A stretch of 64,000 nucleotides of DNA from an uncultured Bacteroidales bacterium (GTDB taxonomy: Bacteria; Bacteroidota; Bacteroidia; Bacteroidales; Paludibacteraceae), in the NCBI GenBank assembly GCA_945921355.1, contig CAMEKM010000001.1, forward strand, positions 1 to 64,000. Direction: 5' to 3'. Each line of letters starts with the position of its first letter. Position 1 is the first letter of the stretch. The position numbers and the translations under genes are program-made. Positions 264 to 33,261 of the stretch are shown here, piece by piece. The notes beneath the pieces are model-generated. The model had not been told where the DNA came from. It did no database searches and worked only from the letters and a program-made list of their open reading frames with translations.

Positions 264-295
264 TTTGCATAAATGAAAAAATAATAGTACCTTTG
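264..295 (+). promoter_or_regulatory. Bacteroidetes-type promoter of the first PUL operon
   Basis: TTTG at 264-267 is followed after exactly 20 nt by TACCTTTG at 288-295. This matches the Bacteroides -33/-7 consensus TTTG and TAnnTTTG. The first start codon is at 359, which leaves a leader of about 55 nt. No equally good promoter was noticed inside the following operon. Confidence 0.8.
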
Positions 296-358
296 TCGCC
301 GATTTATGGATGTAAGTCAAGATACAATTTTTTATATTAACTCTAAAATCTAATAAAC

Positions 359-1801
359 ATGAAAAGAATTTTTATCTCTCTCCTCGCTGTTATAGCGATG
401 GTAGGTGTGGCAAATGCACAACGCACATGGGCGTACGATCTCAATTCAACACAAGTGGGAGATGCTTATACCTTCGAGTTTAAGGCAACCACTGCTGCTA
501 CAACTGCAAACTTGGTGCTTGTTGATGTAAATGGCAATGCGGTGGCAAAACTGCCTTTGGAAAATGTAGTGGCAGGTGCTAACTCAGTGACTCTTGAACT
601 AGCAAAGCTTCATAAAGATGCTGTAAATTGGGCTGTAGAACTTACAGGCGAAGCAATTGCTGAATTAACTGAGGTTACCGATGTTAATCGCGGTATCTAC
701 AATTTCTATCTGCCACAAGATGTTGCTGTAGATAATAATCCAGAGTCTGACTATTTTGGTCAAATCTACGTGGCTGAGGCTACTGATGGTGCTTCCGATG
801 GTGGTTCTGAACGTGCAGATACTCAAAAACGTGGTATCTTTGTTTATGACCAAGAGTTGAATGAACTTAATCCTACTACCAATGTAGGTATTCTGCCAAG
901 TAACGTTACTTTGACTGATCAGTCACGCCAAGCTTTACACCGTATGGCTGTTAATCCTGTGGATAATCACATTGCTTTTGCTTATAATGTATCTGGATCG
1001 TCTGCTGTGTGGTGTATGGATCCAGCTAATCTCGCAGGAGAGGCTACAGACTTGATTGCAGGTTTGAAAATTACGGCTGCAAATGCTATTTGTTTTGACG
1101 AAGAAGGTACTCTATATGTAATGGATAACTCTAATACAGCTACTGGAGGTACGATAGTAAAAGTGAAGGGTGGTAAAATGGATACTGTTGCACAAAATGC
1201 TATTTGGGGAGTGCCAGATATTTCGCTCGTTTCTGATGGCCGTGGTGGTCTTTGGCTGGCACAAAACCGTTGGCAGGTAGATGCTTACGCTGTTCTTTCT
1301 CATGTGAATGCTGCAGGTGACGTGGATTATAAGGTTACAACTTCTTCTGAAGATGCAACAATGTTCCCAAATGATTTTAATGCATCATACCGCGGTCAAT
1401 GTGCATACAATGCAGCAGAAGATGTATTGGCATTTGGTGGAAACAAGGTGGTAGCTCTCTTTAAGGTGACTTATGACGCTGAGACAGGTGTTCCTACATT
1501 GGAGAAACTGCACACCACTCCAGCATTGGGTAACAATATTGATGGTGTAGCATTTGACTATGCTGGTGACTTGTATGTTGTTTCTGCATCTGTTGAACGT
1601 TTTTATAAATTTGCTATGCCTACTGCAGAAAACACATGCACCACTCCTGCTAAGTCTTCTTTGGTAATCACTGGCGGTACAGCTACTTCTATCGACAATG
1701 TGGCTATCTCTGTAGATGCTCAAAAGATTATTCGCAATGGGCAAGTGCTTATCATTCGCGATGGTAAGACCTTCAATATGTTAGGACAAGAAGTGAAGTA
1801 A
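359..1801 (+). CDS. Secreted propeller-like protein with a C-terminal tail motif
   Basis: The product has 480 residues. Residues 1-20 form a Sec signal peptide ending in NAQ. The body contains a stretch around residues 118-140 (YLPQDVAVDNN, then YFGQIYVAEA) that recurs twice in the large amidase two genes downstream. This suggests a shared beta-propeller-like repeat module. The last ~24 residues (IIRNGQVLIIRDGKTFNMLG and a final K) resemble the ends of two other secreted proteins in this window. The gene has its own strong promoter and opens the operon. Function is unknown; a surface-exposed binding or scaffold role in glycan capture is an inference. I did not recognise a named family. Confidence 0.8.
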   Translation: MKRIFISLLAVIAMVGVANAQRTWAYDLNSTQVGDAYTFEFKATTAATTANLVLVDVNGNAVAKLPLENVVAGANSVTLELAKLHKDAVNWAVELTGEAIAELTEVTDVNRGIYNFYLPQDVAVDNNPESDYFGQIYVAEATDGASDGGSERADTQKRGIFVYDQELNELNPTTNVGILPSNVTLTDQSRQALHRMAVNPVDNHIAFAYNVSGSSAVWCMDPANLAGEATDLIAGLKITAANAICFDEEGTLYVMDNSNTATGGTIVKVKGGKMDTVAQNAIWGVPDISLVSDGRGGLWLAQNRWQVDAYAVLSHVNAAGDVDYKVTTSSEDATMFPNDFNASYRGQCAYNAAEDVLAFGGNKVVALFKVTYDAETGVPTLEKLHTTPALGNNIDGVAFDYAGDLYVVSASVERFYKFAMPTAENTCTTPAKSSLVITGGTATSIDNVAISVDAQKIIRNGQVLIIRDGKTFNMLGQEVK

Positions 1802-1836
1802 TCGACTTGTAAATGTCGGCAATGACAAAATAATAC

Positions 1837-1879
1837 ATACCAACAAACTGCTTGAAATCCTCGGGTGGTTTGTTGGTAT
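1837..1879 (+). terminator. Intergenic hairpin after the first gene
   Basis: A perfect 12-bp stem (ATACCAACAAAC pairs with GTTTGTTGGTAT) encloses a ~19-nt loop between genes 1 and 2. No long T-run follows. It is therefore better read as an attenuator or mRNA-stabilising hairpin that could set the first gene's expression apart from the rest of the operon. Confidence 0.55.
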
Positions 1880-1925
1880 TCCTTCAAGGAAATATACACC
1901 TTAATAATATAACACGTTACAAACC

Positions 1926-3851
1926 ATGAAAAGATTATCTGTGTTATTCATTTTTGCTTTGTTTGCAATGTGGGCAATAGGGCAAGAACCCTATCCTAAA
2001 CGTGAAATGCGTGCTACGTGGCTGACTACGGTAGCAAATATCGACTGGCCTTTGTCATATACGGTCGGAGAAGAAGCACAGAAGAATGAACTGAATGCGC
2101 TCCTGGATGCTTGTGTGAAGTTCAATATGAATACTGTTTTGTTCCATATCCGTCCAGCGTGTGATGCTCTTTATAAATCTAACTATGAACCATGGTCAAG
2201 TTATCTTAATAATGGACGTGGAGTGGACCCTGGTTGGGATCCTCTGCAATATTGTATTGATGAATGTCATAAACGCGGATTGACCTGTCACGGATGGATT
2301 AATCCTTATCGTTATGGCAAGCGTGGTGGGTATGATTGGACGGGAAATGATGATACTACGCAATTAAATTACAAACATACGCATCCAGAGTGGTTGCTGT
2401 ATTACAAAAACGATATTTACCTTGACCCTGGACAACCTGAAGTGCTACAGCAAATTAAAAAGGTTGTGGGGGATATTATCAATAATTATGATGTTGATGG
2501 TATCTTGATGGATGACTACTTCTATCCATATGGAGGTACTTCGAATCAAGATGCAGCAAGTGTCGCAAAATACAAACCCGATGATATGAACGTCGGTGAT
2601 TGGCGTCGCCAAAACGTCAATAAGATGGTTAAAGCAGTCTATGATACGATTCAGGCAGTAAAGCCGTGGGTAACTTTTGGTGTGTCGCCCTTTGGCATTT
2701 GGACTACTGATAGTAGTGTGGCATCCAAACGTGGCATCACGCTGCCATATAATATCACAGGCGGTAATATGTATGCCGAAATTTACTGTGACCCTGTAGC
2801 GTGGCTGGAGGAAGGTACTGTCGATTACCTATCTCCGCAATTATACTGGAAGATTGGAGGTGGACAAGACTATAAGAAACTTAGCAAATGGTGGGGAGAT
2901 ATCTGCAACCGATTTGGAAAACATTTCTACTCTAGTATGGCGTTGTATAGATACGAGAGTGGGGAATTTAGTGCTACAGAAATCCGCAATCAATTAGTGT
3001 ACAACCGCACCGTGAAAGATGGCGCACCAGGTGCTGTGTTTTACAACACCCGCGCATGGAGCAATAGTTCAAAGCTGCGCGTAAATCTCACGAAGGAAAC
3101 AGCAGAATTCTACAAGTTGGCACTGCCTCCTGCTATCAACTGGAAACCTACTCAAGAGCGAGTAATGGTCGAGAATCTTGCAATCAACGCAAATACGCTA
3201 ACATGGACGCATGCGGATAGTGACGTGCATTTTGCTGTTTATGCTATACCGAACGATTCAATCAACCTACCACATATCTATTCGCGTGGAGATATGTTAG
3301 TAGGTGTCTCTTATATAAATACATTTACTTTACCCTCTGAAATAACTCCAACCACGCATCAAATAGCAGTTAGTGTATTAGATAAATACAACAACGAATA
3401 CGCTCTGCGCATTTTAGATAAAGCACTAAGCACACCCAAAGCCACTTCTGCATTAACACCTACCAACGGAGGCATAAAAAAACTACCATTCACTTTCCGT
3501 TGGAATGCCGTAGAAGGTGCTGATAGCTACATCATCCAGTTTGCTAAAGATGAGGCAATGACCCAAATCGTATTCGCACAGGAATTGACAGAAACTTCTT
3601 TTGAAACAAAACTGCGCAAGAATTTAGAATATCTTCCTTTGGGTAACTACTATTGGCGAGTGAAAACGCGTATCCCCAATGCGGGTGATACTTGGAGTGC
3701 GATACAAAAGGTAACGATTTCGCTAGAAGATGCTGTAGAAGATATAAATGCTGAAACTCCGAAAGCAGAAAAATGGATTGAAAATGGACAAGTCTATATC
3801 ATGCGTCAAGGCACTACCTACGATATGTTGGGTAATACAATAAGCAAATAA
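1926..3851 (+). CDS. GHL10-family (DUF187/DigH-like) glycoside hydrolase
   Basis: The product has 641 residues with a short signal peptide (ends AIGQ). The hallmark GHL10 opening REMRATWLTTVANIDWP is at about residues 27-43. Barrel motifs follow: FHIRPACDALY, CHGWINPYRYG, VDGILMDDYFYP and FGVSPFGIW. The acidic pair in LMDDYF is a candidate active-site feature. A fibronectin-like region follows, and a short C-terminal tail (ENGQVYIMRQGTTYDMLG) is shared with two other secreted proteins here. The E. coli family member DigH (YddW) acts on denuded peptidoglycan glycan strands. That suits the neighbouring amidase and NamZ genes, but the exact substrate is inferred. Confidence 0.88.
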   Translation: MKRLSVLFIFALFAMWAIGQEPYPKREMRATWLTTVANIDWPLSYTVGEEAQKNELNALLDACVKFNMNTVLFHIRPACDALYKSNYEPWSSYLNNGRGVDPGWDPLQYCIDECHKRGLTCHGWINPYRYGKRGGYDWTGNDDTTQLNYKHTHPEWLLYYKNDIYLDPGQPEVLQQIKKVVGDIINNYDVDGILMDDYFYPYGGTSNQDAASVAKYKPDDMNVGDWRRQNVNKMVKAVYDTIQAVKPWVTFGVSPFGIWTTDSSVASKRGITLPYNITGGNMYAEIYCDPVAWLEEGTVDYLSPQLYWKIGGGQDYKKLSKWWGDICNRFGKHFYSSMALYRYESGEFSATEIRNQLVYNRTVKDGAPGAVFYNTRAWSNSSKLRVNLTKETAEFYKLALPPAINWKPTQERVMVENLAINANTLTWTHADSDVHFAVYAIPNDSINLPHIYSRGDMLVGVSYINTFTLPSEITPTTHQIAVSVLDKYNNEYALRILDKALSTPKATSALTPTNGGIKKLPFTFRWNAVEGADSYIIQFAKDEAMTQIVFAQELTETSFETKLRKNLEYLPLGNYYWRVKTRIPNAGDTWSAIQKVTISLEDAVEDINAETPKAEKWIENGQVYIMRQGTTYDMLGNTISK

Positions 3852-3880
3852 GAAACACAAATCATCAAATACTAAATAAT

Positions 3881-6800
3881 ATGCGTAAACTTACTTTATT
3901 TCTAAGCTTGCTGCTGGCTACTATGCTTGTAGCGCAGCCTACCGTTAGTATCCAAGATCAAAAGATGTTGGTAACCAATGGAGAACACAATTATGTATTA
4001 GCTCCCAACGGGGATGATGCCAGTTATTTCTGGGCAAGTGTTTCGCCTGATGGCAAACACCTTGTTTATGTTACCGCCAAATATGGCACATTCGTGTGCG
4101 GAATCAACGGCGAAAACGTCCGCTCTATGGGACGTATGAATGCACCTAAATGGTTGGATAACAATCATGTGGCAGGTATGCAAGAGTTTTACAAAGATCA
4201 TGACGAGATTGACTATATTCGTTATATATCTCGCTCTATTGATGGCAAAGTAACTCGCGACCTAACGCAAAAAGAGCAAACCAACTTCATCAAGGCTGAA
4301 GAGGCGCGTCTTGCTAAGGAAAAACAACGTCAAGCAGCGCGATTGGCAGCGCGCAAATATGCTGCTGAAGCACGCACTGATTTGAGTGGCTTGAAGATTT
4401 ATGTCAATGCAGGACATGGGGGCTACGATGCAAACGACCGTAGTTGTTGGACGATCCCTGTTCCAGAGACATGGAGCAATCCTGAAGGTTATTGGGAGAG
4501 TAAATCCAACCTTGTAAAGGCTCTGGCACTTGAAGAAATGCTCAAGAAAGCAGGTGCTACTGTCATCATGTCACGTCATACCAACAACTCTGGTATTCGT
4601 GACCTCGAATATTATCCAGGGGCTACTGAAGCAGAAAAAGCTGAGTTGCGCAATGGTGATGACCGCGATCTAAGTGCAATTGCAGAAGAGGCAAATGCCA
4701 ATAATGTGGATCATTTCATATCTATCCATTCTAATGCTTTGAATGGTCGAACCAACTATCTTTTGATGCTTTATCATGGATACAATGACCAACCTACAGT
4801 TGCTCAAAGTGATAAGATGGCAGAGAGTAGTGGTAACATCCAAATCCAAAACCCTCTGACCGTTTGGACCAGCCCAAAACCATTGTTGCGTGGTGATTTT
4901 ACGTTCTATGGTGACGATATGGGACTTGGTGTCCTTCGCCCTCTTACTGTTCCTGGTTTCCTTAGCGAAGGTAGTTTCCACGACTATGCACCAGAAACAC
5001 ACCGCCTAATGAATGATGACTACTGCAAACTCGAGGCTTTACGTATGTTCCAACACTTCCACAAATGGTTCAATGCTCCCCTTCCACAAACAGCTACCAT
5101 TAGTGGTTGGGTGAAATCAAGCAATGAGTTGGTGGATGTATTGGGTGAACCTAAATTTGTATATGTTAAGAACAGTGATGACCAATGGTTGCCAATCAAT
5201 GGTGCTAAAGTAGAGTTGTATAAAGGAACCACTAAGGTTGCTGAAAAAACAACGGATAATTGGTACAATGGAGTGTTTGCATTCTACGATTTGACACCGG
5301 GTACATATAAACTAGTTGTTACCAAAGATAAATATGCTACTGTTACCACAGAGGTTACTGTAAAAGCAGAAGAGATTGCTGGTGTAAAAGTGCGTATGAA
5401 GAATATTCGCATGCATGTGGAGGATTATCCTCAAGTGGATAATGATGCTGTAGCATTGAATAAATACGAATTTGAATTAGTAAACGAAGTAAAGACCACA
5501 CCTAATAATATCACGCGCGCGTTGCATCGCAATGGCAAGTGCTATTTGTTAGTAGATGGCAAGATTACAGAGTACTCACTCGATTTCGCAACCAGCAATG
5601 CATTGCCAATGCCTGCGGGAGTGGAAATTTGTGATATGAACTTTACTGCGGATGGTTATCTTATTGCAAAAGTAAAAGACCAAGGTACTTTCTACACATG
5701 GGATGATAACTTGCAAAATCCTACCCAACTCTTCAGTGTTAGTGATGTGAAAGGTAATTCATTTGCAGTCAGTGGTGCACGCTGGGAAAGCAAGTATTAT
5801 CTTGGTGAGGGTACCACCCTTTATACTGTATCATACGATGAAGATGCCAAGAAAGCAACTGTTGCCACTTCTACCGCTAAGGAAGACCTTACGGGTAAAC
5901 AACTCACCATCTCTCCACTCGGTACTGTTTATGCTGCATCAGGTGTTTCATTCTTCCGCTATGCAGACCACGCGTATATGGTAGATCCTACCCATCATGC
6001 AAATCAATTCCAACTCTTTGATGTTACTAACGGTCTTGATAACGCAAAAGTGGCAAGCGATCTCTATCCTGCTACAGTGCCTACCGATGCGCCTAATACA
6101 CATACAATGGCATGGGTGGATGGTTATACTATCCATATCATGACAATTGCTGAAGGTTATGGCATGCAACGCTACCAAACTCTCTCTTCTGCAGTAGCTA
6201 ACATCTATGCAGGCGAGGTGGATTATGATGGCAAGAATTTCATCTTCCGCCTCAATGAAGATGCTACTGATGTGACTATCTCTATTGAGAAAAACAACGA
6301 GATTGTTGCTACACAATCTATTGGTGCTCTCAAGAAAGGTCCTAATAAAGTGGCAAACCCATTCGTCAAAACTGCTTTTGACCATTATAGCATTACTGCT
6401 ACAGCACGTCCTATTGCTTTCCCTGTGAAGATTAGTAACGATGATGAGATATTCCAATTCTATGCACCACGTGGTGTAGCGGTAGATAAAACTCCTGCCA
6501 GCCCATACTTCGGTCGCGTTTATGTAACCAACTCAGTGGCTGGACAATGTACCGAAGGTACTGCTGATTCGTTCCGTAATTCTACAATGGGCGTCTTCGT
6601 GCTCAGTAGCGACTTCCAAGATATCACTAAGCAAGGGGCTAATGCTTGGCATGGTAATATCGAGTGGGGAGAAAATAATACAGGTACCAACTATCAATGG
6701 GCACTTACTCGTCCTGCAGTAGCACCTAATGGTGACGTATTTGTACCTAGTTCATCTTATACTTCAGCAGGTATTTATATCATGGAAGCTGCTAAGCCAG

Positions 6801-9016
6801 ATGGTACATTCATCACGCTGTTTGGAGGTAAACGTAGCAAATCTACAGGACAATTGAAATCTGGAAAAACAGTAGTCACCAATCCTATTATGCACTGCTA
6901 TGTGACTGGCTTGGGCAAAGACGAAGTACTTTATACCTACGACCGTGATAACTCAATGGGTACTGTATATACCAATATCATGCAATACAATATCGGACAA
7001 GTAGATAGCTTACCTTGGAAACAAGCACCTACAGCTACTATCTACAAGGATATGACAAATGTCTTTATGGAGAATGGTAGTGGACAATTGGCTTACGACC
7101 AACACGGAGGCTTCTTCATGAGCCAATATCGCTACAACTCAAGCTATGCAAAACCAGGACTACTGCACGTTAATGCAAAAGGCGAAGTGGATTTCAATAT
7201 CTCCAACAATGGTGTAGATGCTGTACAACAAGGTGGTATGGCTGTCAATGCTGATGGCTCTTTGGTGGCTTTAGGTACAGAATATGGTACTGTAAAGATT
7301 TGGGAGGTTGAATATGATGCTGCTGGAGCTCCAACTCTTACCGAGAAATATATCATCAAATGGAGCGATGCTGATGTAGTGACCATGGGTATGGACTTCG
7401 ATGCTGCTGGCAACTTATACATTGTGTCAAATACCAATGAACGATTGATGGTATATGCATTGCCTAATACAAATAATACATACACTACCCGCGTGCCTCT
7501 CAATCGTGAGAAATATCCACGTGTAACGGGAACTGAAGAAGAAAAACCAGATCCTGGAGTAGATACTGGTGTTCGTACTGAGGGATTAAATGCATATACT
7601 TCCAATATGTCTTCTGCTGCATTGGAAACAGATAATAAAGTGATTATTACATACACACTCAATGCACCAGCTGCAGGCTTATCATTGCAAGTATTGGACG
7701 AAAATAAGAATGTGATAGCTACCGTTCCTATGAATCTCGCTGAAAACCGAACCAAAGGTTCACATCGTGTTGAGGTTAGTTTGAATGGTATAACACCAGG
7801 TACCTATAATTGGGCACTGCAGGCCATCAGCTTGCCGTTGCCAGAAGAGGGTGAAGCATTCTGCGCAATAGATAACTTACCTGATAAGATGATGGCATCT
7901 AAAGGTCTTGCTATTGACAATGATTACAACTCTCCATACTTCGGACAACTCTATGTGGCAGAGTCAAGTGGCGACAAAGTACTTGAAAATAAAGCAATTT
8001 ATATCTACGATGCTACAATGGATATGGTTGAGAAAGTCACTTCCGACAAGTGGGCTGCTGCTGTTAGTGCTCCATGTCGTGTTACAGTAGGTCCTGACCA
8101 TCAACTTTATATTTGCGAGTGGGCAGACGTATATCCTAATAATGCCTACATCATGGATCCTGCTAACCCATCTGAACTTACGCCAATCTTCGGTGGTACA
8201 CCAGCAGAAAATGGTATTTATACCGCTGCGAATGGTAAAGACATTCACGGCTCTATCAGCCATATTTGGGTAGAGGGAACAGGTGCTGATCGCGTACTCT
8301 ATACTTTCGATGAGGATATCAATATGGAGGGATTGATTCACCCTATGGGCTTGTATCAATACAATATTGGCGAACTCGCTACACCATGGGAACAAGCACC
8401 TAGCAAACTAGTATTTGATAATGCAGACTTCCTCCAACAAAATGGTAATAGCTTTATCCAACCTGACCAATATGGTTGGTGGATTAGCCAAGACCGTGCA
8501 ACAGATAATGCAGAAATTCCTGCCCTCATTCACATCAACAAAGAGGGCAAAGTGGACTTCAATTCTGCAGGTACTCTTGGTGGTCGTACACGTGGTGCAC
8601 TCGGATTTAATAAAGATATGACTATGATGGCTACTGCTATTACAGGTGGTATCCTCCTTTGGAATGTGAAATACGATGCGCAGGGCGTGCCTTCTTTAGA
8701 GTCTGCAGGACGTATTGAAACCAGTTTCGCACAATCATGTTGGAATGTAGTATTCGATGTGGCAGGTAATATCTATGCTTCTGGAGCAGGTAGTGTAAGT
8801 GCTTGGGCATTGCCTTCTACCGACTACACATGCGCAGTATCTGCACCTGATGAAGACAAACTAACAATCGTTTCTACAGGGATTGAAAACGTAGAAGTTG
8901 ATGCTTCTATTTTTAGAAGTGGTGTGTACACTGTTACTGGTCAATATCTCGGTACAGACGATAGCAACCTACCTCAAGGATTGTATATTATTAACGGAAA
9001 GAAAGTTATAAAATGA
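3881..9016 (+). CDS. Multidomain secreted N-acetylmuramoyl-L-alanine amidase
   Basis: The product has 1711 residues. It has a signal peptide (ends LVAQ), an N-terminal WD40/TolB-like stretch, then an Amidase_3 domain at about residues 170-395. That domain shows IYVNAGHGGYD, the acidic zinc-ligand region in WESKSN, ISIHSNALN and a late glutamate in GFLSEGSF, which is the zinc amidase signature. A carboxypeptidase-regulatory-like domain follows (~405-510). Two long propeller-like modules come next, both containing the PYFG(R/Q)(V/L)YV phrase seen in the first gene. The end (GVYTVTGQYLG, then LPQGLYIINGKKVIK) looks like a type A C-terminal sorting domain. Typical amidases are a few hundred residues, so the size is exceptional. 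The 3' end overlaps the SusC start by 4 nt (ATGA), which indicates translational coupling. Confidence 0.87.
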   Translation: MRKLTLFLSLLLATMLVAQPTVSIQDQKMLVTNGEHNYVLAPNGDDASYFWASVSPDGKHLVYVTAKYGTFVCGINGENVRSMGRMNAPKWLDNNHVAGMQEFYKDHDEIDYIRYISRSIDGKVTRDLTQKEQTNFIKAEEARLAKEKQRQAARLAARKYAAEARTDLSGLKIYVNAGHGGYDANDRSCWTIPVPETWSNPEGYWESKSNLVKALALEEMLKKAGATVIMSRHTNNSGIRDLEYYPGATEAEKAELRNGDDRDLSAIAEEANANNVDHFISIHSNALNGRTNYLLMLYHGYNDQPTVAQSDKMAESSGNIQIQNPLTVWTSPKPLLRGDFTFYGDDMGLGVLRPLTVPGFLSEGSFHDYAPETHRLMNDDYCKLEALRMFQHFHKWFNAPLPQTATISGWVKSSNELVDVLGEPKFVYVKNSDDQWLPINGAKVELYKGTTKVAEKTTDNWYNGVFAFYDLTPGTYKLVVTKDKYATVTTEVTVKAEEIAGVKVRMKNIRMHVEDYPQVDNDAVALNKYEFELVNEVKTTPNNITRALHRNGKCYLLVDGKITEYSLDFATSNALPMPAGVEICDMNFTADGYLIAKVKDQGTFYTWDDNLQNPTQLFSVSDVKGNSFAVSGARWESKYYLGEGTTLYTVSYDEDAKKATVATSTAKEDLTGKQLTISPLGTVYAASGVSFFRYADHAYMVDPTHHANQFQLFDVTNGLDNAKVASDLYPATVPTDAPNTHTMAWVDGYTIHIMTIAEGYGMQRYQTLSSAVANIYAGEVDYDGKNFIFRLNEDATDVTISIEKNNEIVATQSIGALKKGPNKVANPFVKTAFDHYSITATARPIAFPVKISNDDEIFQFYAPRGVAVDKTPASPYFGRVYVTNSVAGQCTEGTADSFRNSTMGVFVLSSDFQDITKQGANAWHGNIEWGENNTGTNYQWALTRPAVAPNGDVFVPSSSYTSAGIYIMEAAKPDGTFITLFGGKRSKSTGQLKSGKTVVTNPIMHCYVTGLGKDEVLYTYDRDNSMGTVYTNIMQYNIGQVDSLPWKQAPTATIYKDMTNVFMENGSGQLAYDQHGGFFMSQYRYNSSYAKPGLLHVNAKGEVDFNISNNGVDAVQQGGMAVNADGSLVALGTEYGTVKIWEVEYDAAGAPTLTEKYIIKWSDADVVTMGMDFDAAGNLYIVSNTNERLMVYALPNTNNTYTTRVPLNREKYPRVTGTEEEKPDPGVDTGVRTEGLNAYTSNMSSAALETDNKVIITYTLNAPAAGLSLQVLDENKNVIATVPMNLAENRTKGSHRVEVSLNGITPGTYNWALQAISLPLPEEGEAFCAIDNLPDKMMASKGLAIDNDYNSPYFGQLYVAESSGDKVLENKAIYIYDATMDMVEKVTSDKWAAAVSAPCRVTVGPDHQLYICEWADVYPNNAYIMDPANPSELTPIFGGTPAENGIYTAANGKDIHGSISHIWVEGTGADRVLYTFDEDINMEGLIHPMGLYQYNIGELATPWEQAPSKLVFDNADFLQQNGNSFIQPDQYGWWISQDRATDNAEIPALIHINKEGKVDFNSAGTLGGRTRGALGFNKDMTMMATAITGGILLWNVKYDAQGVPSLESAGRIETSFAQSCWNVVFDVAGNIYASGAGSVSAWALPSTDYTCAVSAPDEDKLTIVSTGIENVEVDASIFRSGVYTVTGQYLGTDDSNLPQGLYIINGKKVIK

Positions 9017-12000: not shown

Positions 12001-12255
12001 CTGGATATGAGTTATCTTCGCTTGAAGAATATCACCGTAGGTTATAGTTTGCCTGACAAAGTACTCAAGAAAATGCACTTCAACAAGTTCCGTGTATATT
12101 TCAGTGCTGAAAATGTATGCGAAATAGATCATCTTGGTGATTTGCCAATTGATCCTGAAACAGCTACTTCTGCTGGTGATGGTGGTGCAATGGGATTCGG
12201 TCGTATCTATCCATTCACTCGCCAACTCAGTTGCGGTTTGCAAATATCATTGTAA
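9013..12255 (+). CDS. SusC/RagA-family TonB-linked outer-membrane transporter
   Basis: The product has 1080 residues with signal peptide MKRLAFLFIALATVLVANA. A carboxypeptidase-D-like domain follows (GQVTDAQGEPLIGVSV). The TonB-box region precedes the plug (LDEVVVVGYDTQRKANLTGA; later ILVDGVEISD and VLKDAASSSIYGTRAAFGVI). A long beta-barrel ends in aromatic-rich strands. It should import ligands captured by the SusD-like partner encoded immediately downstream. The start overlaps the amidase stop, so amidase and transporter are probably made together. In this enzyme context muropeptides or glycan fragments are the likely cargo (inference). Confidence 0.95.
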   Translation: MKRLAFLFIALATVLVANAAVVTGQVTDAQGEPLIGVSVVVIGTSNGTITDIDGFYTIDVAPNAQLQFSYMGYTTINEIVNNRATINVVLKEDTRLLDEVVVVGYDTQRKANLTGAVGSISVEDQLEGRPIANVGTGMQGAVAGLTVTNSSGRLGDTPKFRIRGAVGTLLNEGGSQPLILVDGVEISDISMINADDIKEISVLKDAASSSIYGTRAAFGVILITTKSGSGVESKFSVNYSNNFSWATPTALPEIAKSYIGAEMALEARNRRTPGTSVFTNACGLIWDADDIEAMYEWDRMFGSQDLGPEMVEGRDFVLKSGIPHFYRSWNAADEYVKDFSFSQQHNMSFSGTAGKTNYYMGLSYMGQGGVVKVNPDSYNRFSVNYSTDTEIKPWLKVRSKALYTRTNLETSFNFGTSSYDALYYLYRWPSIMPYGTYEGIPFRNSVTETAAASMDSDVKDYMRFSVGATFVLGIPDLTLDIDYTYNLDNQHITQRGGTVGGWDFWSGSMALVDNWAASSRNKIDKYQYNRNYHAGNAVLRYKHTWNDAHSLNVFAGMNIEYKEVDYMNAEVRDLLDQSKPEIPLAIGDKFVYGSHTSWAIMGFFARANYAYKNRYLIELNGRFDGSSRFPTDQQWGFFPSGSLGWVASEENFWEVLNPYWSFLKIRASYGSIGNQDIGDNRFRAIMASSNSGWIIGETNKLTFGLPTALAEGFTWETIKTINGGIDTRFFNDELGVSFDIYRRINDGMVVGGSEVPSTFGATAPYENAAQLTTNGWELGIDYHHRFANGLRLNVSANVSDALTIVTKHPRKTSSVIDGSNYEGKIYGEIWGFTTDRLFQESDFNADGTLVDGIASQAYFENSSGYGYKYGPGDVKYKDLDGNGEITWGDKTVDNHGDWSRIGNTTPRYEYNFKIGADWYGVDLNIFFQGVGSRQYWATGTMMIPGWNFSEGTYYAHQTDYWTPENTDAYYPRLTETNQPGQYSAAGFNFLCQSRYLLDMSYLRLKNITVGYSLPDKVLKKMHFNKFRVYFSAENVCEIDHLGDLPIDPETATSAGDGGAMGFGRIYPFTRQLSCGLQISL

Positions 12256-12288
12256 TGAAACTCTGAAATATTGAAACTTTGTAATAGT

Positions 12289-14064
12289 ATGAATATGAAA
12301 ACAAAATATATTTTTCTATCCGTTTGGGCTATTGTATTAGCCTTTACGATGACTAGTTGCGATAGTTTCCTCAATCAACCTCCTTATGATGATTTCACCG
12401 ATGAGGAGTATTGGCAAAACGAGGACCAAGCACGTACCTATATGTATGGTTTCTATACTTCCATTTTCTCTGGATATGGTACAGGCACTTCGCATGGTCC
12501 ATTCCTAATGGGACAAACATTAAATGATGATTTCGCTTCTGATGTGGAGCAAAAAGATTTGACACCGTTGGTAGTACCTGAGTCCGATGGTTCTTGGAGT
12601 TTTAGCAATATTCGCAAGACTAACTATGCATTAGCGAGCATTGATCGCATTGATGCTACTCCTGCTGTCAAAAACCATTGGCGCGGCGTAGCACGATTCT
12701 TCCGTGCTTGTTATTATAGTAACCTCGTATTCCGTTATGGCGATGTGCCTTGGTATGACCGAGTACCTAAACTCAGTAACAACAAAGAGGACATGGACTA
12801 TCTCTATAAGGACCGTGATCCACGTGCGTTTGTGGACTCATGCATCATGGCTGACTTTCAATACGCTATGGATAGTGTACGTGAAAACGATGGACCTCTA
12901 CAGATCAACCGTTATGTGGTAGCAGCTATGGCATCACGATTCATGCTTCGCGAGGGTACATTCCTTAAATACCACAATATTGATACGGAACTGGCTACAC
13001 AATGCCTTACTATGGCAAAATCTGCGGCAGAAGTGGTGATGAATTCCAATAAATATGCTATTGCGCCTTCCTATAACGCGCTCTTTACCAGCGATGACCT
13101 TGGCAGTAATCCAGAAATTATCATGCATCGCCACTATGTAGATGGCGTCCTAGCTCACTCTACACTCACCTACTCGTTCACCGAGGCACAAGCTGGATTG
13201 AGTCGCTCACTGGCGGAGGCGTTTGTGACAAGCGATGGATTACCTCTCTATAGCAAAGATGCTAATTTCGTAGCTCCAACGGCGGACGACTTTTTTGCTA
13301 ACCGTGATGCACGTTTGACCATGTGTATTCGCCCAAAGTATTATGTAAAAGGGTGCGATACCAAACCGTTCAACTACGCACTATCTGGCTATTCTTGGAA
13401 CAAGTTTATGGATGATAGCAAAGCTGACAAACCAGATCCTACTTGGACAGGTCAAAAGAACGTTACCGACGCTCCATGCTTACGTTATGCAGAGGTCTTG
13501 CTCAACTATGCAGAAGCAACATACGAGTTGCATTTGCTCACAGGCGCTGCGTTCACTCAAGCTGATTTGGACAAATCAATCAATAAGATTCGCGCACGCG
13601 AAGATGTCAATCTGCCTGCCCTTCAGATAGTAGGTGACCAACCTGCTATCAATGGGGTAGCATTTGATGATCCTAAGCGACTTGAAATCGAGAAAAATGC
13701 AGATGGTGGTATCACTCCTGCATTGCTTTGGGAAATCCGTCGTGAACGCCGTGTTGAGCTCTGTATGGAAGGCTTCCGCCTCAACGACCTCAAGCGCTGG
13801 TGCAAACTCGATTATCTATGGAATGGTTGCAACCCTGATATCCGCTATGGCGCATATATCCGCTTAAGCGACTATCCTACCAGAGGAACTGAGGTGGTTT
13901 TAGAAGACCCTAATGCTACTGAGGGCTATATCCTGCGCAATACACTCGGTCAACGCAACCGTCCAATCAAGCGCAACTATATCAATCCTATCCCTTCTGG
14001 ACAAATTACATTGTATAAGACAAAAGGCTATACATTGTCTCAAAATACAGAATGGGGATGGTAA
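12289..14064 (+). CDS. SusD/RagB-family nutrient-binding lipoprotein
   Basis: I start the gene at the ATG that gives MNMKTKYIFLS; the reading frame stays open upstream, but only to a TTG. The signal peptide ends in FTMTSC, a lipobox, so the mature protein is a surface lipoprotein starting at the Cys. The N-terminal SusD-like helical repeats (FLNQPPYDDFTDEEYW) and the RagB C-terminal region (LLWEIRRERRVELCMEGFR, then DLKRW) are clear. Length (~590 residues) is normal. It caps the SusC protein encoded 33 nt upstream and determines ligand capture. Confidence 0.95.
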   Translation: MNMKTKYIFLSVWAIVLAFTMTSCDSFLNQPPYDDFTDEEYWQNEDQARTYMYGFYTSIFSGYGTGTSHGPFLMGQTLNDDFASDVEQKDLTPLVVPESDGSWSFSNIRKTNYALASIDRIDATPAVKNHWRGVARFFRACYYSNLVFRYGDVPWYDRVPKLSNNKEDMDYLYKDRDPRAFVDSCIMADFQYAMDSVRENDGPLQINRYVVAAMASRFMLREGTFLKYHNIDTELATQCLTMAKSAAEVVMNSNKYAIAPSYNALFTSDDLGSNPEIIMHRHYVDGVLAHSTLTYSFTEAQAGLSRSLAEAFVTSDGLPLYSKDANFVAPTADDFFANRDARLTMCIRPKYYVKGCDTKPFNYALSGYSWNKFMDDSKADKPDPTWTGQKNVTDAPCLRYAEVLLNYAEATYELHLLTGAAFTQADLDKSINKIRAREDVNLPALQIVGDQPAINGVAFDDPKRLEIEKNADGGITPALLWEIRRERRVELCMEGFRLNDLKRWCKLDYLWNGCNPDIRYGAYIRLSDYPTRGTEVVLEDPNATEGYILRNTLGQRNRPIKRNYINPIPSGQITLYKTKGYTLSQNTEWGW

Positions 14065-14112
14065 TTTTATACGATAGTTAATTATTCAAATAACATAAAT
14101 TAATAATCAATT

Positions 14113-15855
14113 ATGAAAAAGAATCTTTTTTTTCTTAGTATCGCCATGTTGAGCGTACTATTAGTAGGTTGTAAACCAGAACCTCAACCTCAAGACACAA
14201 TTGAGGCTCTCATCAAATCTATCTCTATCAAAAACACCACGTACAATGGTGAGGTGGATAACACTACTTACACTGTGACATTCAATGATGTAGCGGCTGA
14301 AACCAATATTGAAGCCATTCAATTTACCACCAAACTCTCTTTGGGTGCCAAATTAGAGCAAGACACTTATGATTTTACCCAAGGTGCTTCTGAAGATGGC
14401 AAACAATTGGTTCAAACCATCAAGGTTATCAATGGTACCAAAGAGCAGGCATACACCGTAATTATCAATCTTTCAGATCCTACATCGGACCCAATGCTTG
14501 ATAAGTTGGAAATGAAGAAGGCAAGCAATGGCGACAAAGTAACTGCACAAATCATTGATGGTGTGCTCGCTTTGGGTATGCCAGAAGAGAGTGAAGCAAC
14601 TTTTGTTAGCATCTCCGTCATCCCAGCACGTGCTACCTATAAGTTTACAACGATGCAAGATGACAAATTGACTGCTGCTAATCCTGGTCAGCTCGAACTT
14701 GAGTTTATGGGACGTAAAACAGTGATGGATATTACCTTCAAAGCAGCACCTACTCCTGGTGTAGAAATCGCTGCTGCTGTGGTTCACGATTTCTCTGTAG
14801 CTACTGGCAAAGCTCCTGCTGAGTTCGCTGCTGAAAATACTCGTGGTACTGACTTTGATGGTGAGCATGTACTCGTGGTATCACGCAATGACGATGGTTC
14901 TGCATTCCCACATCTCTACAAAGTATCTGACCTTTTGGCTGACAACGCAGGCAACAAGATTGCTCTCAATACTACCGGTATTGAAGGCGGTACACACGTA
15001 GTAAGCTCTGGTAGCTTGAACCACGGTCACATCTATATCTGTAACTTGACCACACAACTCAGCAAGGATATGCCTCTCAAGGTATATCACTATGCGGATG
15101 CTAATGCTGCTCCTGAGGTTTGGTCATGGGATGGCGTACTTGGCGTAACCGAAGAGGGTGACACTATTGGTGCTCCTGCTCGTTTGGGTGATAATATCTC
15201 TGTTAATATCGATGAGTCTGGTAACGGTTATGCATTCTTCTGCGGCCAAGAGGGTTCTGCTGAGAAAGTTTACCGCGTACAAATCACCAACTTCAATCAG
15301 TTCTCTACTCCTACTGAGATTATTCTCGATGTTCCATTCCCATACTATGGCTACATCAACGAGGTTCCAGAGGCTGGTCAATATATCTTCAAGAGCCACT
15401 ATATGGCTGTTCTCCGCTTGATGGATGCTAATGGTGTATCCCTCATGGAGGATATCGAGTTGGATGCTACAGAGAGCGGTTTGAATCCACGTGGCGGTGT
15501 AGATCCTCATGTGATTATGTTCAACCGTGCTCGCTACCTCGTACTCGCTGCTCCTTACAACAATGGTAAGCGTATCGGTAAAGAGCCAAGTGTGTTCATC
15601 CAAGACATCACCGATGGTGTGGACACCAAGGCTGCACTCATCAAGTGGTCTGAGCTCTTGTATGACGAGGAATATCTCTGGGAGCCTACATACTTCTATT
15701 CACTTGATACAGATGCTGGTATTGATGCTGGCAACAAGACTGTTGCTGCTTGCGCTGCTCAATGTAATGCTGCAGAGGTAGATGGCAAACTCGTTGTCTT
15801 TGTTGCTGCTACCAAAGCTGGTTTCGCACTCATCGAATTCCCTAAAGCAAAGTAA
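14113..15855 (+). CDS. DUF4623-like surface lipoprotein
   Basis: The product has 580 residues with lipoprotein signal LSVLLVGC. Residues ~30-125 look like a DUF5018/Ig-like repeat (SIKNTTYNGEVDNTTYTVTF). The larger C-terminal part (~230-575) resembles DUF4623 propeller-like proteins that accompany SusCD pairs. No catalytic residues are evident. Its place after SusD is the usual position of a SusE/F-like surface glycan-binding protein. That role is inferred from context. Confidence 0.75.
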   Translation: MKKNLFFLSIAMLSVLLVGCKPEPQPQDTIEALIKSISIKNTTYNGEVDNTTYTVTFNDVAAETNIEAIQFTTKLSLGAKLEQDTYDFTQGASEDGKQLVQTIKVINGTKEQAYTVIINLSDPTSDPMLDKLEMKKASNGDKVTAQIIDGVLALGMPEESEATFVSISVIPARATYKFTTMQDDKLTAANPGQLELEFMGRKTVMDITFKAAPTPGVEIAAAVVHDFSVATGKAPAEFAAENTRGTDFDGEHVLVVSRNDDGSAFPHLYKVSDLLADNAGNKIALNTTGIEGGTHVVSSGSLNHGHIYICNLTTQLSKDMPLKVYHYADANAAPEVWSWDGVLGVTEEGDTIGAPARLGDNISVNIDESGNGYAFFCGQEGSAEKVYRVQITNFNQFSTPTEIILDVPFPYYGYINEVPEAGQYIFKSHYMAVLRLMDANGVSLMEDIELDATESGLNPRGGVDPHVIMFNRARYLVLAAPYNNGKRIGKEPSVFIQDITDGVDTKAALIKWSELLYDEEYLWEPTYFYSLDTDAGIDAGNKTVAACAAQCNAAEVDGKLVVFVAATKAGFALIEFPKAK

Positions 15856-15873
15856 ATCATATGAATAAATAAG

Positions 15874-15903
15874 TATAGAGGCTGCCATGCGACAGCCTCT
15901 ATA
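15874..15903. terminator. Intergenic stem-loop
   Basis: An 11-bp perfect stem (TATAGAGGCTG pairs with CAGCCTCTATA) has an 8-nt loop. The tail after it is only weakly T-rich, so partial termination or transcript stabilisation is more likely than a full operon end. Confidence 0.55.
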
Positions 15904-15926
15904 TTACAATATACAGATAGGCTCTA

Positions 15927-16814
15927 ATGAAGAAAATATCACTTATTTTGTCTCTTTTATTGGCAGGTTTGTGGGCTTCACTTGCTGCACAAGATATTCT
16001 TACTATTTGGCGCAACAATGAGGCTATAGAGTTCCCTATATCAGAGATTGATAGTATCACTTTCAAAACGGATGTACCCCAATACATTGGTGAGTTTTCA
16101 GTAAAGCATGACAAGAAAGTCGCTTTTGCACCTGGTAACTTGCAGTATATCACAACTACTGGCACATGGCTTTTTGCTGCACAGCAATACGAATATATTG
16201 GTACTCGTAATATGGTTGATAATGCTTTTGCTGATACGATTGATCTTTTCGCATGGAGCACGGATACGGATCCCTCCACAGCATGGGGTGTCACTTTATC
16301 CGAAGACAATAGCCTCTTCAATGGCAATTTTGTGGATTGGGGAACTGCCATTGATGATGGCAATACATGGCGCACGCTGACATCTAGTGAGTGGGAATAC
16401 CTTAGGGCATTGCGCAAAAATGCCAAGAATCTTATCGGTATAGGCAGTATAGAAGGATCACATGGGTTACTCTTATTGCCAGACAATTGGGTATGTCCAG
16501 ATGGTATTACTTTTAAAAGTGGATACAGCGACAAGGAGTACAGTTCTATAGCTTTCGAGGAGTACCAATCCTTTACCATCGAACAGTGGAATACGATGCA
16601 AGCTGCGGGTGCAGTCTTCTTGCCTTGTGCTGGTTTCCGCTTAGGCACCTCGTTGGGATATATGCAGATGGCTGGTCTGTACTGGACAGCATCCCCAGAT
16701 GCAGCCTATGGTCCTCGTTTTGCTAGCTATTTCCTATTTATGTGCGATGGTGCGGGTATTGGCTATGACAACCGAACTGGCGGCAATGCAGTGCGTCTAG
16801 TGCGAGACTTATAA
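15927..16814 (+). CDS. Secreted FISUMP-like paralogous-domain protein
   Basis: The product has 295 residues with a signal peptide ending SLAAQ. It starts with a short domain (IWRNNEAIEFPISEIDSITF) seen before many Bacteroidales surface domains. Then comes a recognisable repeat-family body: FAPGNLQYITTTGTWLFAAQ, WRTLTSSEWEYL, LLLPDNWVCPDG, AGAVFLPCAGFR, YWTAS and AVRLVRDL. This resembles the secreted 'major paralogous domain' proteins of Fibrobacter and Bacteroidales. Function is unknown; no enzyme motif is visible. It lies between the lipoprotein gene and namZ and is probably co-transcribed. Confidence 0.7.
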   Translation: MKKISLILSLLLAGLWASLAAQDILTIWRNNEAIEFPISEIDSITFKTDVPQYIGEFSVKHDKKVAFAPGNLQYITTTGTWLFAAQQYEYIGTRNMVDNAFADTIDLFAWSTDTDPSTAWGVTLSEDNSLFNGNFVDWGTAIDDGNTWRTLTSSEWEYLRALRKNAKNLIGIGSIEGSHGLLLLPDNWVCPDGITFKSGYSDKEYSSIAFEEYQSFTIEQWNTMQAAGAVFLPCAGFRLGTSLGYMQMAGLYWTASPDAAYGPRFASYFLFMCDGAGIGYDNRTGGNAVRLVRDL

Positions 16815-16860
16815 TCACACCATACCCTTTGCCAATAAAATCAGACCAAATAACATACAT

Positions 16861-18045
16861 ATGAAAAAAATCATCACTATCATTGTTTTTCTCTGCGCAG
16901 CATTGATTCACATTGAGGCTAAAGATGTGATTCTAGGTGCAGAGCAAACCAAACAATACCTACCTTTGCTCAAGGGCAAGCGCGTTGCTCTACTGAGCAA
17001 CCATACAGGTGTCGTGATCCAAGGCAAGGACACGATTCACACCCTCGACCTTTTGCTCAAGCATGGCGTAGAGGTTACTGCCATCTTCTCCCCAGAACAT
17101 GGTTTCCGCGGCACCGCTCGTGAAGGCGAGCATGTGGCTAGCAGCGTAGATGAGAAGACAGGCATACCTATTCTCTCTCTCTACGATGGAAAGAGCTATC
17201 GTCCCTCTAAGGAGGCCATGGCCACTTTCGACATCCTTATCACCGACATTCAAGATGTAGGACTCCGCTTCTACACTTACTATATCACGATGTTCCGCCT
17301 GATGGACGCTTGCGCACATGATGGCAAGCAGTTCATCGTCTTTGACCGTCCTAACCCTAACGGATGGTATGTGGATGGTCCTATACTAGATATGAAGCAC
17401 AAATCTGGCGTGGGTGCATTGCCAATACCCGTAGTACATGGTATGACCTTGGGTGAACTGGCATTGATGATCAATGGTGAGAACTGGCTATACGATTCGC
17501 TCCAAGTGGACCTGACTGTCATTCCTTGCAAAAATTATACTCACCAAACGTTATATCGTCTGCCTGTAGCGCCTTCGCCTAACCTACGCAACATGCTTTC
17601 TATCTACCTTTATCCTGCCGTGTGCTTGTTTGAGGCAACCCCTGTGTCTTTAGGTCGAGGTACGGATAAACCATTCTTGTGCTATGGTCACCCTAACTTC
17701 AATGCACCTCGCACCGAGGCGAGTGTGTATGGTCCTGCGATTACCTTTACCCCTAATCAATCCACTCAGAAAGGTCGCATCTGCGATGGTGTGGACCTCA
17801 GCGGCATGAGCGAAGAGGAAGCACGCCAAGTGGGATTCTCACTGCGCTATCTATTGGACGCGTATGAGCATCTCCATATGGACAACTATTTCTTCCGTCC
17901 TTTCTTTGAGTATTTAGTAGGTGTAGATTATGTTCGCAAGATGATCAATCAGGGCAAGAGCGAGGAAGAAATCGCAGCTCGTTGGCAAGAGGATGTGGCG
18001 AAGTTCAAAGAGCAACGCCGTCCTTATCTCCTCTACGAAGAGTAG
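16861..18045 (+). CDS. namZ: Exo-beta-N-acetylmuramidase NamZ (DUF1343, GH171)
   Basis: The product has 394 residues with an N-terminal signal peptide (ends HIEA). DUF1343 hallmarks are GKRVALLSNHTGV, IFSPEHGFRGTAREGE, ILITDIQDVGLRFYTY, FDRPNPNGW and PVVHGMTLGELA. Characterised NamZ proteins release MurNAc from the non-reducing end of peptidoglycan fragments. In this operon the enzyme would act after the amidase has stripped peptides and GHL10 has cut the denuded chains. The neighbouring symporter could then take up the released sugar. Family assignment is firm; the pathway is inferred from the gene neighbours. Confidence 0.88.
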   Translation: MKKIITIIVFLCAALIHIEAKDVILGAEQTKQYLPLLKGKRVALLSNHTGVVIQGKDTIHTLDLLLKHGVEVTAIFSPEHGFRGTAREGEHVASSVDEKTGIPILSLYDGKSYRPSKEAMATFDILITDIQDVGLRFYTYYITMFRLMDACAHDGKQFIVFDRPNPNGWYVDGPILDMKHKSGVGALPIPVVHGMTLGELALMINGENWLYDSLQVDLTVIPCKNYTHQTLYRLPVAPSPNLRNMLSIYLYPAVCLFEATPVSLGRGTDKPFLCYGHPNFNAPRTEASVYGPAITFTPNQSTQKGRICDGVDLSGMSEEEARQVGFSLRYLLDAYEHLHMDNYFFRPFFEYLVGVDYVRKMINQGKSEEEIAARWQEDVAKFKEQRRPYLLYEE

Positions 18046-18068
18046 TTTATAGTTTATAGTTTATAGTT
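18043..18068. repeat. Short tandem TTTATAG repeat
   Basis: The phrase TTTATAG is repeated three to four times in the short gap between namZ and the symporter gene. It belongs to the AT-rich short-repeat type found elsewhere in this window. No regulatory role is evident. Confidence 0.5.
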
Positions 18069-18083
18069 TAAAGGCTCAGATAT

Positions 18084-19538
18084 ATGAATCCATTAACAAT
18101 CTTATTAGTCATCGCATGCTATTTTGCATTGCTGTTTTTCATTTCCTACCTGGCTGGTCGTAAGGCCGACAATGCAGGTTTCTTCTCGGGCAACCGCAGT
18201 AGTAATTGGTTACTCGTAGCCATGTCCACTATCGGTGCTGCTATCTCCGGTGTTACCTTTGTCAGCGTACCAGGTATGGTAGCCACTTCGGGTTGGGCAT
18301 ATATGCAGATGGTGCTTGGTTTCACCGTAGGTCAATTCTTGATTGCCTATGTACTTATCCCATTGTACTACAAACTCAACCTTACATCCATCTACCAATA
18401 CCTCCAACAGCGTTTTGGCATGAACACCTACAAGTCGGGTGCTTGGCTCTTCTTTGTGAGCAAGATGCTTGGTGCTAGTGTGCGCTTGTTCGTAGTGAGC
18501 GAAGTGCTACAGTTGCTAGTATTCGACAAATTGGCAGTTCCAGTACCATTCTGGGTAAATGCCATCATCACCGTGCTCATCGTATATCTATGCACCTTCA
18601 AGGGTGGTGTGAAATCACTCATCTGGACTGATCTGCTGAAGACCTGCTGCCTTATTCTATCCGTGGCACTCTGTATCTACTTCGTGCTTCGCGCAGGCGT
18701 GAATATCGAAGGTTGGGGTAATAGTGATATGACTCGTACTTTCTTCTTTGATAATCCTAAAGAGGGCACCTATTTCTGGAAGCAGTTCCTCGCGGGTGTC
18801 TTCCTCGTGATTGCTACCACAGGTCTTGACCAAGACCTCATGCAGCGTACCCTATCATGCAAGAACCCACGCGAGAGTCAGAAGAACCTCATCGTAGGTG
18901 CACTGATGCAAATCGTAGTAATTGCTCTCTTCCTCTTCTTGGGTTATCTGCTCTATACCTATGCCGCACAAACGGGTGTAACGGAAGTGGCCAACCTCAA
19001 GGGCGACGATGTTTTCCCGTTCTTGGCGACAGGCAACTACTTCCCTGTGATTGTAGGCGTATTATTTATCATCGGTTTTATCGCAGCAGCATATTCCGCA
19101 GCGGGCGGAGCATTGACGGCCTTGACCACCTCATTCACGGTGGATATTCTCAACAAGGAGAAGGCCGACAACCTTACCAAAGTACGCACCATAGTGCACA
19201 TAGGCATGGCTATACTGATGGCCGCTTGTATCTATGTCATCCACCTATTGAATGATGATTCGGTGATTCAAACCGTATATAAAGTTGCTAGTTACACCTA
19301 TGGTCCATTATTGGGTATGTTCTGTTTTGGTATCTTTACCAAGCAGCAAGTACGCGACCGTTGGATTCCTCTAGTAGTGATATTGGCTCCAGTCATCACA
19401 TGGATTATTGACGTCAATTCTGCCGTATGGTTCAACGGCTACGTCTTCTCCCACGAGCGTTTAATCTTGAATGCTTTGCTCACGTTTATGGGTATGGTTT
19501 GCTTATTGAAGGGTAGTGTGAAGACCAAGCAAGGGTAA
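18084..19538 (+). CDS. Sodium:solute symporter (SSS/SLC5 family)
   Basis: The product has 484 residues and about 13 hydrophobic helices. SSS-family features include GFFSGNRSSNWLLVAMSTIG near residues 32-51, TTGLDQDLMQRTLSCK in the middle, and AAAYSAAGGALTALTTSF. It is an inner-membrane transporter. In Tannerella forsythia a transporter of this general type imports MurNAc. The adjacent namZ makes MurNAc the best guess here, although no murK or murQ homologue lies in the window. It is the last gene of the operon and is followed by a strong hairpin. Confidence 0.9.
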   Translation: MNPLTILLVIACYFALLFFISYLAGRKADNAGFFSGNRSSNWLLVAMSTIGAAISGVTFVSVPGMVATSGWAYMQMVLGFTVGQFLIAYVLIPLYYKLNLTSIYQYLQQRFGMNTYKSGAWLFFVSKMLGASVRLFVVSEVLQLLVFDKLAVPVPFWVNAIITVLIVYLCTFKGGVKSLIWTDLLKTCCLILSVALCIYFVLRAGVNIEGWGNSDMTRTFFFDNPKEGTYFWKQFLAGVFLVIATTGLDQDLMQRTLSCKNPRESQKNLIVGALMQIVVIALFLFLGYLLYTYAAQTGVTEVANLKGDDVFPFLATGNYFPVIVGVLFIIGFIAAAYSAAGGALTALTTSFTVDILNKEKADNLTKVRTIVHIGMAILMAACIYVIHLLNDDSVIQTVYKVASYTYGPLLGMFCFGIFTKQQVRDRWIPLVVILAPVITWIIDVNSAVWFNGYVFSHERLILNALLTFMGMVCLLKGSVKTKQG

Positions 19539-19562
19539 GAAATAAGCATTAAGTATAAAGCA

Positions 19563-19590
19563 ATAGGGTGTACCAAGCGGTACACCCTAT
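19563..19590. terminator. Bidirectional terminator between convergent operons
   Basis: A perfect 12-bp stem (ATAGGGTGTACC pairs with GGTACACCCTAT) has a 4-nt loop. It lies between the end of the + strand PUL operon and the 3' end of rpoD on the - strand. The + side has a T-rich tail. Confidence 0.75.
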
Positions 19591-19608
19591 CTTATTCATT
19601 TTTAGTCC

Positions 19609-33188: not shown

Positions 33189-33261
33189 GATTCAGTAGCT
33201 CAGCAGGTAGAGCACATCCCTTTTAAGGATGGGGTCCTGGGTTCGAGCCCCAGCTGAATCA
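33189..33261 (+). tRNA. tRNA-Lys (anticodon TTT)
   Basis: A 73-nt cloverleaf. Acceptor GATTCAG pairs with CTGAATC, the D-arm is AGCTCAGCAGGTAGAGC, and anticodon stem CATCC/GGATG has loop CTTTTAA. The T-arm holds GGTTCGAGCCC and the discriminator is A. Its own promoter and terminator flank it. It marks the left edge of the accessory region, a common insertion position, but no integrase is present. Confidence 0.95.

Follow-up and report, generated by a model that had tools for sequence, protein, structure and literature searches.

The closest described system to the locus reported here belongs to Tannerella forsythia, which lacks MurA and MurB and is an auxotroph for N-acetylmuramic acid (MurNAc) (PMC7670621). 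Its scavenging genes (ampG, ybbC, murT, murK and murQ) lie in the operon Tanf_08345-08385 (PMC5388701, PMC7670621); the published account of this nine-gene operon names no SusC/SusD or GHL10, and AmpG and MurT, a transporter of the major facilitator superfamily (MFS), are used (PMC5388701). We analysed a nine-gene operon at 359-19538 of a 64,000-nucleotide stretch of DNA, referred to as the window, from an uncultured gut Bacteroidales bacterium of the family Paludibacteraceae (contig CAMEKM010000001.1, here C1). The bacterium has the same kind of scavenging genes, including a ybbC/NamZ-type gene, and likewise no MurA or MurB was found in it, but its operon is unlike that of T. forsythia in holding SusC/SusD (SusCD), GHL10, an amidase and an SSS-family symporter, with murK and murQ in a second cluster. 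We put the probability at about three in four that the operon is a SusCD-type peptidoglycan-scavenging locus which supplies MurNAc to probable auxotrophs.

In its make-up the operon resembles the SusCD polysaccharide utilization loci (PULs) of Bacteroidota, with SusC/SusD, a surface lipoprotein, exported glycan-cleaving enzymes and an inner-membrane transporter in one operon. It differs from other SusCD PULs in that its enzymes come from peptidoglycan families; no regulator gene is visible in the operon. Fidelibacter multiformis is a parallel in another phylum: its lineage as a whole lost genes of peptidoglycan synthesis and needs exogenous wall fragments, which also provide carbon, but much more of the pathway was lost, the amino acids of the peptide are needed too, and SusC is not mentioned (PMC11652737). 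Cwp19 of Clostridioides difficile, a GHL10 lytic transglycosylase (PMC6016235; structure 5oq2), has the GHL10 domain and most putative active-site residues in common with the operon's protein, but it is an autolysin with cell-wall-binding repeats and lies outside any PUL. Tannerella itself offers a smaller precedent for a split within one genus between making and scavenging MurNAc: the uncultivated Tannerella BU063 retains both enzymes absent from T. forsythia (PMC3925233), and certain isolates of T. forsythia from dogs and cats reportedly have no need for MurNAc (PMC10465942).

An earlier note on this DNA had read the operon as a peptidoglycan-scavenging PUL, and intact catalytic residues, conserved gene order, the co-location of SusCD with MurNAc and muropeptide genes, and a linked murK-murQ pair bear that reading out. 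The genes it had named are present in one operon, their families score above the Pfam/NCBIfam cut-offs, and a promoter and terminator enclose them; its gene list had left out the DUF4623 gene, the 295-aa gene and the 480-aa first gene. The operon exists as one unit. All nine genes lie on the plus strand, framed by one promoter and one terminator (Table 1), and the intergenic gaps are short, with 124 and 71 bp the largest. The promoter motif TTTG-N20-TANNTTTG has its sole match within 1-20,000 here, and the whole window holds 11 matches where shuffles gave an expectation of 1.2. The terminator hairpin stands between the operon and a convergent sigma-factor gene; a further hairpin inside the operon, at 15874-15903, was scored for the minus strand only. 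SusC and SusD are adjacent, with 15 bp between them, as in SusCD-type PULs, and the GHL10, Amidase_3 and NamZ genes are linked to them on one strand between the single promoter and terminator. A Pfam search found no other glycoside hydrolase among the operon proteins. No sensor or regulator gene lies within the operon; regulators are common in PULs but not universal, and as the window opens at the first base of the contig, upstream sequence is not visible.

Table 1. Features of the operon and its flanks, in window coordinates.
Feature	Position	Strand	Evidence
Promoter, Bacteroidales-type, TTTG-N20-TANNTTTG	264-295	+	exact motif match
480-aa secreted propeller-like protein	359-1801	+	relative of the amidase protein's C-terminal modules
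GHL10 glycan-cleaving enzyme	1926-3851	+	PF02638 207.5 bits (cut-off 27.9)
1711-aa amidase/propeller protein	3881-9016	+	PF01520 (Amidase_3) 46.6 bits (cut-off 27)
SusC/RagA TonB-dependent outer-membrane transporter	9013-12255	+	TIGR04056 820.8 bits (cut-off 368)
SusD-family surface lipoprotein	12271-14064	+	PF07980 (SusD_RagB) 108.9 bits (cut-off 23.1)
DUF4623 lipoprotein, putative surface glycan-binding protein	14113-15855	+	PF15416 201.6 bits
295-aa exported protein, no family	15927-16814	+	orthologues in G172, G202, L031
NamZ, predicted exo-beta-N-acetylmuramidase	16861-18045	+	NamZ_N 250.1, NamZ_C 120.1 bits
SSS-family inner-membrane symporter, candidate MurNAc importer	18084-19538	+	PF00474 (SSF) 84.6 bits
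Terminator hairpin	19562-19591		12-13-pair stem, T-rich tails on both strands

The GHL10 protein matched the Cwp19 structure at E 1.5e-77 across 367 residues. The putative active-site residues of Cwp19 were taken from PMC5765458 and read off the alignment after shifting the numbering by 5. Eight of the ten have equivalents (Trp36, Trp127, Arg132, Asp196, Tyr197, Ser250, Gln295 and Tyr297), and two are changed, Gln77 to His and Gly328 to Ser. The protein had been labelled DigH-like, after what we take to be another GHL10 protein; that label draws on the GHL10 family only, and the single solved relative is the lytic transglycosylase Cwp19. Escherichia coli DigH hydrolyses denuded glycans (PMC12288456). 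The operon's enzyme may thus leave either MurNAc or anhydroMurNAc ends, depending on the bond it cuts, and if it is a lytic transglycosylase, the anhydroMurNAc ends would require AnmK.

The amidase call likewise held for the family but covers one N-terminal domain (residues 173-381) of a 1711-aa protein rather than the whole product; CarboxypepD_reg/PEGA and C-terminal propeller-like repeats follow it. In Amidase_3 enzymes a His-Glu-His set binds zinc and a further Glu is catalytic. H179, E206, H283 and E363 are invariant in an alignment of nine sequences, of which one is partial; a phmmer search of the region against PDB gave no match, and the residues were judged from homologues. NamZ has both the N- and the C-terminal NamZ domain and matched structure 4jja end to end (E 9.6e-161). 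The 480-aa product of the first gene matched no Pfam family above the cut-off, and open reading frames in two related genomes (G101 and G102) match both it and the amidase/propeller protein.

Among the transport proteins, DUF4623 comes after SusD in relatives as well, a position which makes it a probable surface glycan-binding protein; its predicted model had a mean predicted local distance difference test (pLDDT) score of 48 and was not used for a fold search. The 295-aa protein matched no family. The SSS symporter adjoins NamZ in 11 of 12 loci of the genus, the window included. Its solved relatives include 5nv9 (annotated as a putative sodium:solute symporter; E 1e-23), presumably a sialic-acid transporter, and from sequence this kinship would be compatible with an acidic amino sugar as substrate, and nothing beyond. 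The symporter was also considered as an orthologue of MurT and rejected, MurT being an MFS protein (PMC5790795) and the window protein SSS. Its relative in T. forsythia (46% identity) does not adjoin murKQ.

The operon order is conserved in full in a yak-colon Paludibacteraceae (L031, 61-95% identity), recurs in G102, and is partly kept in several other Paludibacteraceae, where some loci are cut by contig ends. A search with a SusD alignment collected 80 Bacteroidota loci with SusCD relatives, and flanks of up to 10 kb were fetched. At least one peptidoglycan-type gene was found at 44 of them: NamZ at 26, GHL10 at 22, a dipeptide epimerase at 9, MurQ at 8 and NlpC/P60 at 7. A placement model, rough because it uses guessed copy numbers and a 4-Mb genome size, gave far lower expectations of about 1.3, 2.2, 0.4, 0.4 and 0.9, respectively. 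As a small control, none of four unrelated SusC genes (400 kb from two related genomes) lay near such genes; the 80 loci are not mutually independent. In G033 and G093 the SusCD relatives are in a cluster with two MurK-type kinases, murQ, an AmpG-kind MFS permease, NamZ and an SSS symporter, to which G033 adds GHL10, and the matching cluster of G114 holds NlpC/P60, epimerase and GH9 families. SusC-SusD homologues in a T. forsythia genome (L063) adjoin a K1058-type kinase and genes like those of the scavenging cluster; K1058 is known to sit directly upstream of that cluster (PMC10465942).

The earlier note was correct that the window lacks murK and murQ, and a search of the rest of the genome found both, together, on another contig (C8). 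The genome (G000; 1.80 Mb, 90 contigs, 82% complete) was examined by targeted searches. murQ lies at C8:3342-4112 (318 bits, cut-off 302), and the gene of a 285-aa murK-like kinase lies 22 bp upstream. Of two T. forsythia-related kinase structures, MurK of T. forsythia (8oqw) is the nearer match, at E 1.9e-84 against 1.8e-60 for K1058 (8oqk); the identities of these structures are from PMC10465942, where the codes appear as 8QQW and 8QQK. On the 3' side of murK-murQ (C8:1-20000, L005) are SusC, SusD, two surface-type proteins, a second GHL10 (229.6 bits), a propeller-like protein and NAGPA, a phosphodiester glycosidase; the proteins of this cluster include a PKD protein. This SusC has its own promoter-motif match at C8:4161-4192, so murKQ and SusC need not share one transcript. 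The murK-murQ-SusC adjacency recurs in 13 of the 17 murQ-positive genomes of the genus, within the fetched flanks. On the other side of murK is a divergent gene for a NagB-PIG-L fusion. nagA (TIGR00221) was not found in G000, G101, G033 or G114, and since G033 and G114 also lack it, its absence is uninformative on auxotrophy; one idea is that the PIG-L half of the fusion might deacetylate N-acetylglucosamine-6-phosphate (GlcNAc-6-P) in place of NagA. A second NamZ of G000, of a different subgroup, is on contig C39.

Two side observations concern these clusters. In several genomes (L026/G093, L028/G033) a conserved gene pair for a glycosyltransferase and DUF4922 (Ap4A-phosphorylase-like) accompanies both murK-murQ and a permease of the AmpG type. 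A C-terminal tail of about 35 residues (ENGQVYILRNGVKYNxLGxxVK) is shared by the proteins at 359-1801, 1926-3851 and 62842-63606 and by the GHL10, propeller and NAGPA proteins of C8; it resembles a type IX sorting signal, although no family model for one matched.

The genus to which G000 belongs appears to divide by how its members obtain MurNAc. Searches of G000 with TIGR01072 (MurA) and PF02873 (MurB) gave no match, and both were also unmatched in the near-complete relatives G101, G118 and G111. Among 61 genomes of the genus, murA and murB are both missing from the identical 23, G000 included. The two genes are adjacent in most genomes that possess them, so a single deletion could take out both. 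Mur ligases, which act later, were retained in all 61, with 4-8 Mur_ligase_M matches per genome (5-8 in genomes without murA, 6 in G000). murQ above the cut-off was found in 17 genomes and NamZ in 16, every one of them without murA and murB; in the 38 murA-positive genomes neither was found. When only high-quality genomes are counted (at least 90% complete, at most 5% contaminated), 26 of 26 carry exactly one set, 15 with murA/murB and 11 with murQ. The six genomes with neither murA nor murQ are 54-84% complete; on a MurE tree they are scattered among murA-positive genomes, the pattern that missing contigs would produce.

With murA and murB absent, later genes kept, and murK, murQ and NamZ present, the gene pattern is, by analogy, the signature of the T. 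forsythia MurNAc auxotroph. The lineage appears to have lost its MurNAc-making genes and hence probably must obtain MurNAc from neighbours. Other genera of the family hold murA together with murQ and/or NamZ (G033, G102, G114), and reciprocal loss would explain this simply, although genes may instead have been gained. A single-clade origin of the murQ-positive genomes on the MurE tree was rejected (approximately unbiased test, p 0.002; one gene, several long branches), and its well-supported branches force at least three switches. It is likely, on a one-protein tree with long branches, that the switch happened more than once. We somewhat favour the broader proposal that lineages of this genus repeatedly swapped murA/murB for SusCD peptidoglycan scavenging, one route each, and became obligate cell-wall dependants of their neighbours.

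To build scavenged MurNAc into its cell wall, T. forsythia is believed to rely on AmgK and MurU (PMC7670621). In five genomes of the genus without murA (G101, G111, G171, G183 and G193) an AmgK-like kinase is fused to a RapZ-like C-terminal part beside a MurU-like gene, and the same arrangement also occurs in murA-positive genomes. The NCBIfam scores for AmgK and MurU lie under the curated cut-offs. The best structure match of the MurU-like protein is 4y7t, which we take to be MurU from general knowledge and the reference list of PMC10465942.

Put together, the genes suggest a pathway. Exported amidase and GHL10 would, judging from their families, strip peptides from the peptidoglycan of other bacteria and cut it. 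SusC/SusD, with DUF4623 as a probable binding protein, would carry oligosaccharides or muropeptides through the outer membrane. Periplasmic NamZ, if active as its family predicts, would free MurNAc at non-reducing ends. The SSS symporter may then import MurNAc, the linked murK-murQ would convert part of it into GlcNAc-6-P, and an AmgK-MurU-type route, seen in relatives and not found in the 82% complete G000, could make UDP-MurNAc. In a lineage with no murA or murB, scavenging would probably be the sole source of MurNAc, as in T. forsythia. Because the locus belongs to such a lineage, it likely supplies, in addition to carbon, a cell-wall sugar that the bacterium cannot do without.

It is improbable that the PUL serves as a carbon and nitrogen source only, in a bacterium that makes its own MurNAc and whose murA and murB are missing just from the assembly. 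The incompleteness of G000 and of the six genomes without murA and murQ would fit such an account, but its close relatives G118 (98% complete), G184 (94%) and G202 (90%), of the same supported MurE-tree group, also have neither gene, and the matching absence of both genes from 23 genomes and the single set in every high-quality genome speak against it. Recovery of the cell's own wall-turnover fragments, in place of foreign peptidoglycan, seems still less probable: GHL10 relatives are known in autolysis (PMC6016235), yet outer-membrane SusC/SusD and exported enzymes fit an external substrate, and in a cell with no murA or murB self-recycling cannot substitute for de novo synthesis in net growth. 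An unrelated glycan (chitin-like, fungal, plant or host), with amidase, GHL10 and NamZ incidental, is the least likely target and a very unlikely one. The substrate of SusC/SusD is not readable from sequence, and starch activity was once reported for a GHL10 protein (DogH, title of PMC9967864), but NamZ and Amidase_3 are peptidoglycan families with no other glycoside hydrolase beside them, and the SusCD relatives are co-located with MurQ, MurK, AmpG, and muropeptide endopeptidase or epimerase genes.

Several points lower our confidence that the operon is a peptidoglycan-scavenging locus of auxotrophs. The absence of murA and murB in G000, and the lack of an APH-family (AmgK) match there, were both found in a genome 82% complete. 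Fisher tests for the restriction to genomes without murA gave 1.2e-9 for NamZ and 1.9e-10 for MurQ, but they treat related genomes as independent and thus overstate the evidence; an independent-pairs test gave three of three pairs in the expected direction, a number insufficient for significance. Besides the roughness of the placement model, 36 of the 80 SusCD relatives have no recognised peptidoglycan gene in the fetched flanks, so members of the SusCD group need not all be peptidoglycan-directed. By sequence, the symporter is of a different family from MurT of T. forsythia, and the GHL10 enzyme, its cut assigned at family level only, could act either as a hydrolase or as a lytic transglycosylase. 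The sequences directly show the protein families, the order of the genes, the catalytic residues, murKQ and the lack of murA/murB in the assembly; the enzyme activities, the surface location, the SusCD substrate, MurNAc import by the symporter and the auxotrophy are what we infer from genes alone.

Each element taken singly (PULs, the scavenging of peptidoglycan, auxotrophy for MurNAc) is already known. In the literature searched, which leaves most subscription journals outside, we found no peptidoglycan-dedicated SusCD operon, no NamZ-containing PUL and no switch between making and scavenging MurNAc within a genus at such scale; MurNAc auxotrophy in Bacteroidota is documented there for T. forsythia only, and a cattle-gut study links MurNAc uptake to auxotrophs in a mention without details (PMC9511753). 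PULs are usually read as systems for plant or host glycans. If one SusCD family does go with peptidoglycan genes throughout Bacteroidota, many unassigned PULs would gain a substrate, and the partition into murA/murB or murQ within one genus would make MurNAc auxotrophy a repeated, testable evolutionary outcome. The scavenging reading predicts that bacteria without murA depend on wall-shedding neighbours, and MurNAc dependence may be part of the reason that metagenome assemblies are the sole record of these rumen and gut bacteria.

The window has other features downstream of the operon. On the minus strand at 55617-62758 another SusC/SusD pair lies beside a GH97 glycosidase, as an ordinary PUL. 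A defence-like island at 36443-53081 holds two DNA cytosine methyltransferases, a type II restriction enzyme, a PD-T4-1-like protein, a GHKL ATPase and PDC-S05 candidates, and a tRNA lies in the same stretch at 33189-33261. Three similar promoter-motif matches on the minus strand at 34156-35312, spaced at intervals of about 0.55 kb, suggest a repeated element.

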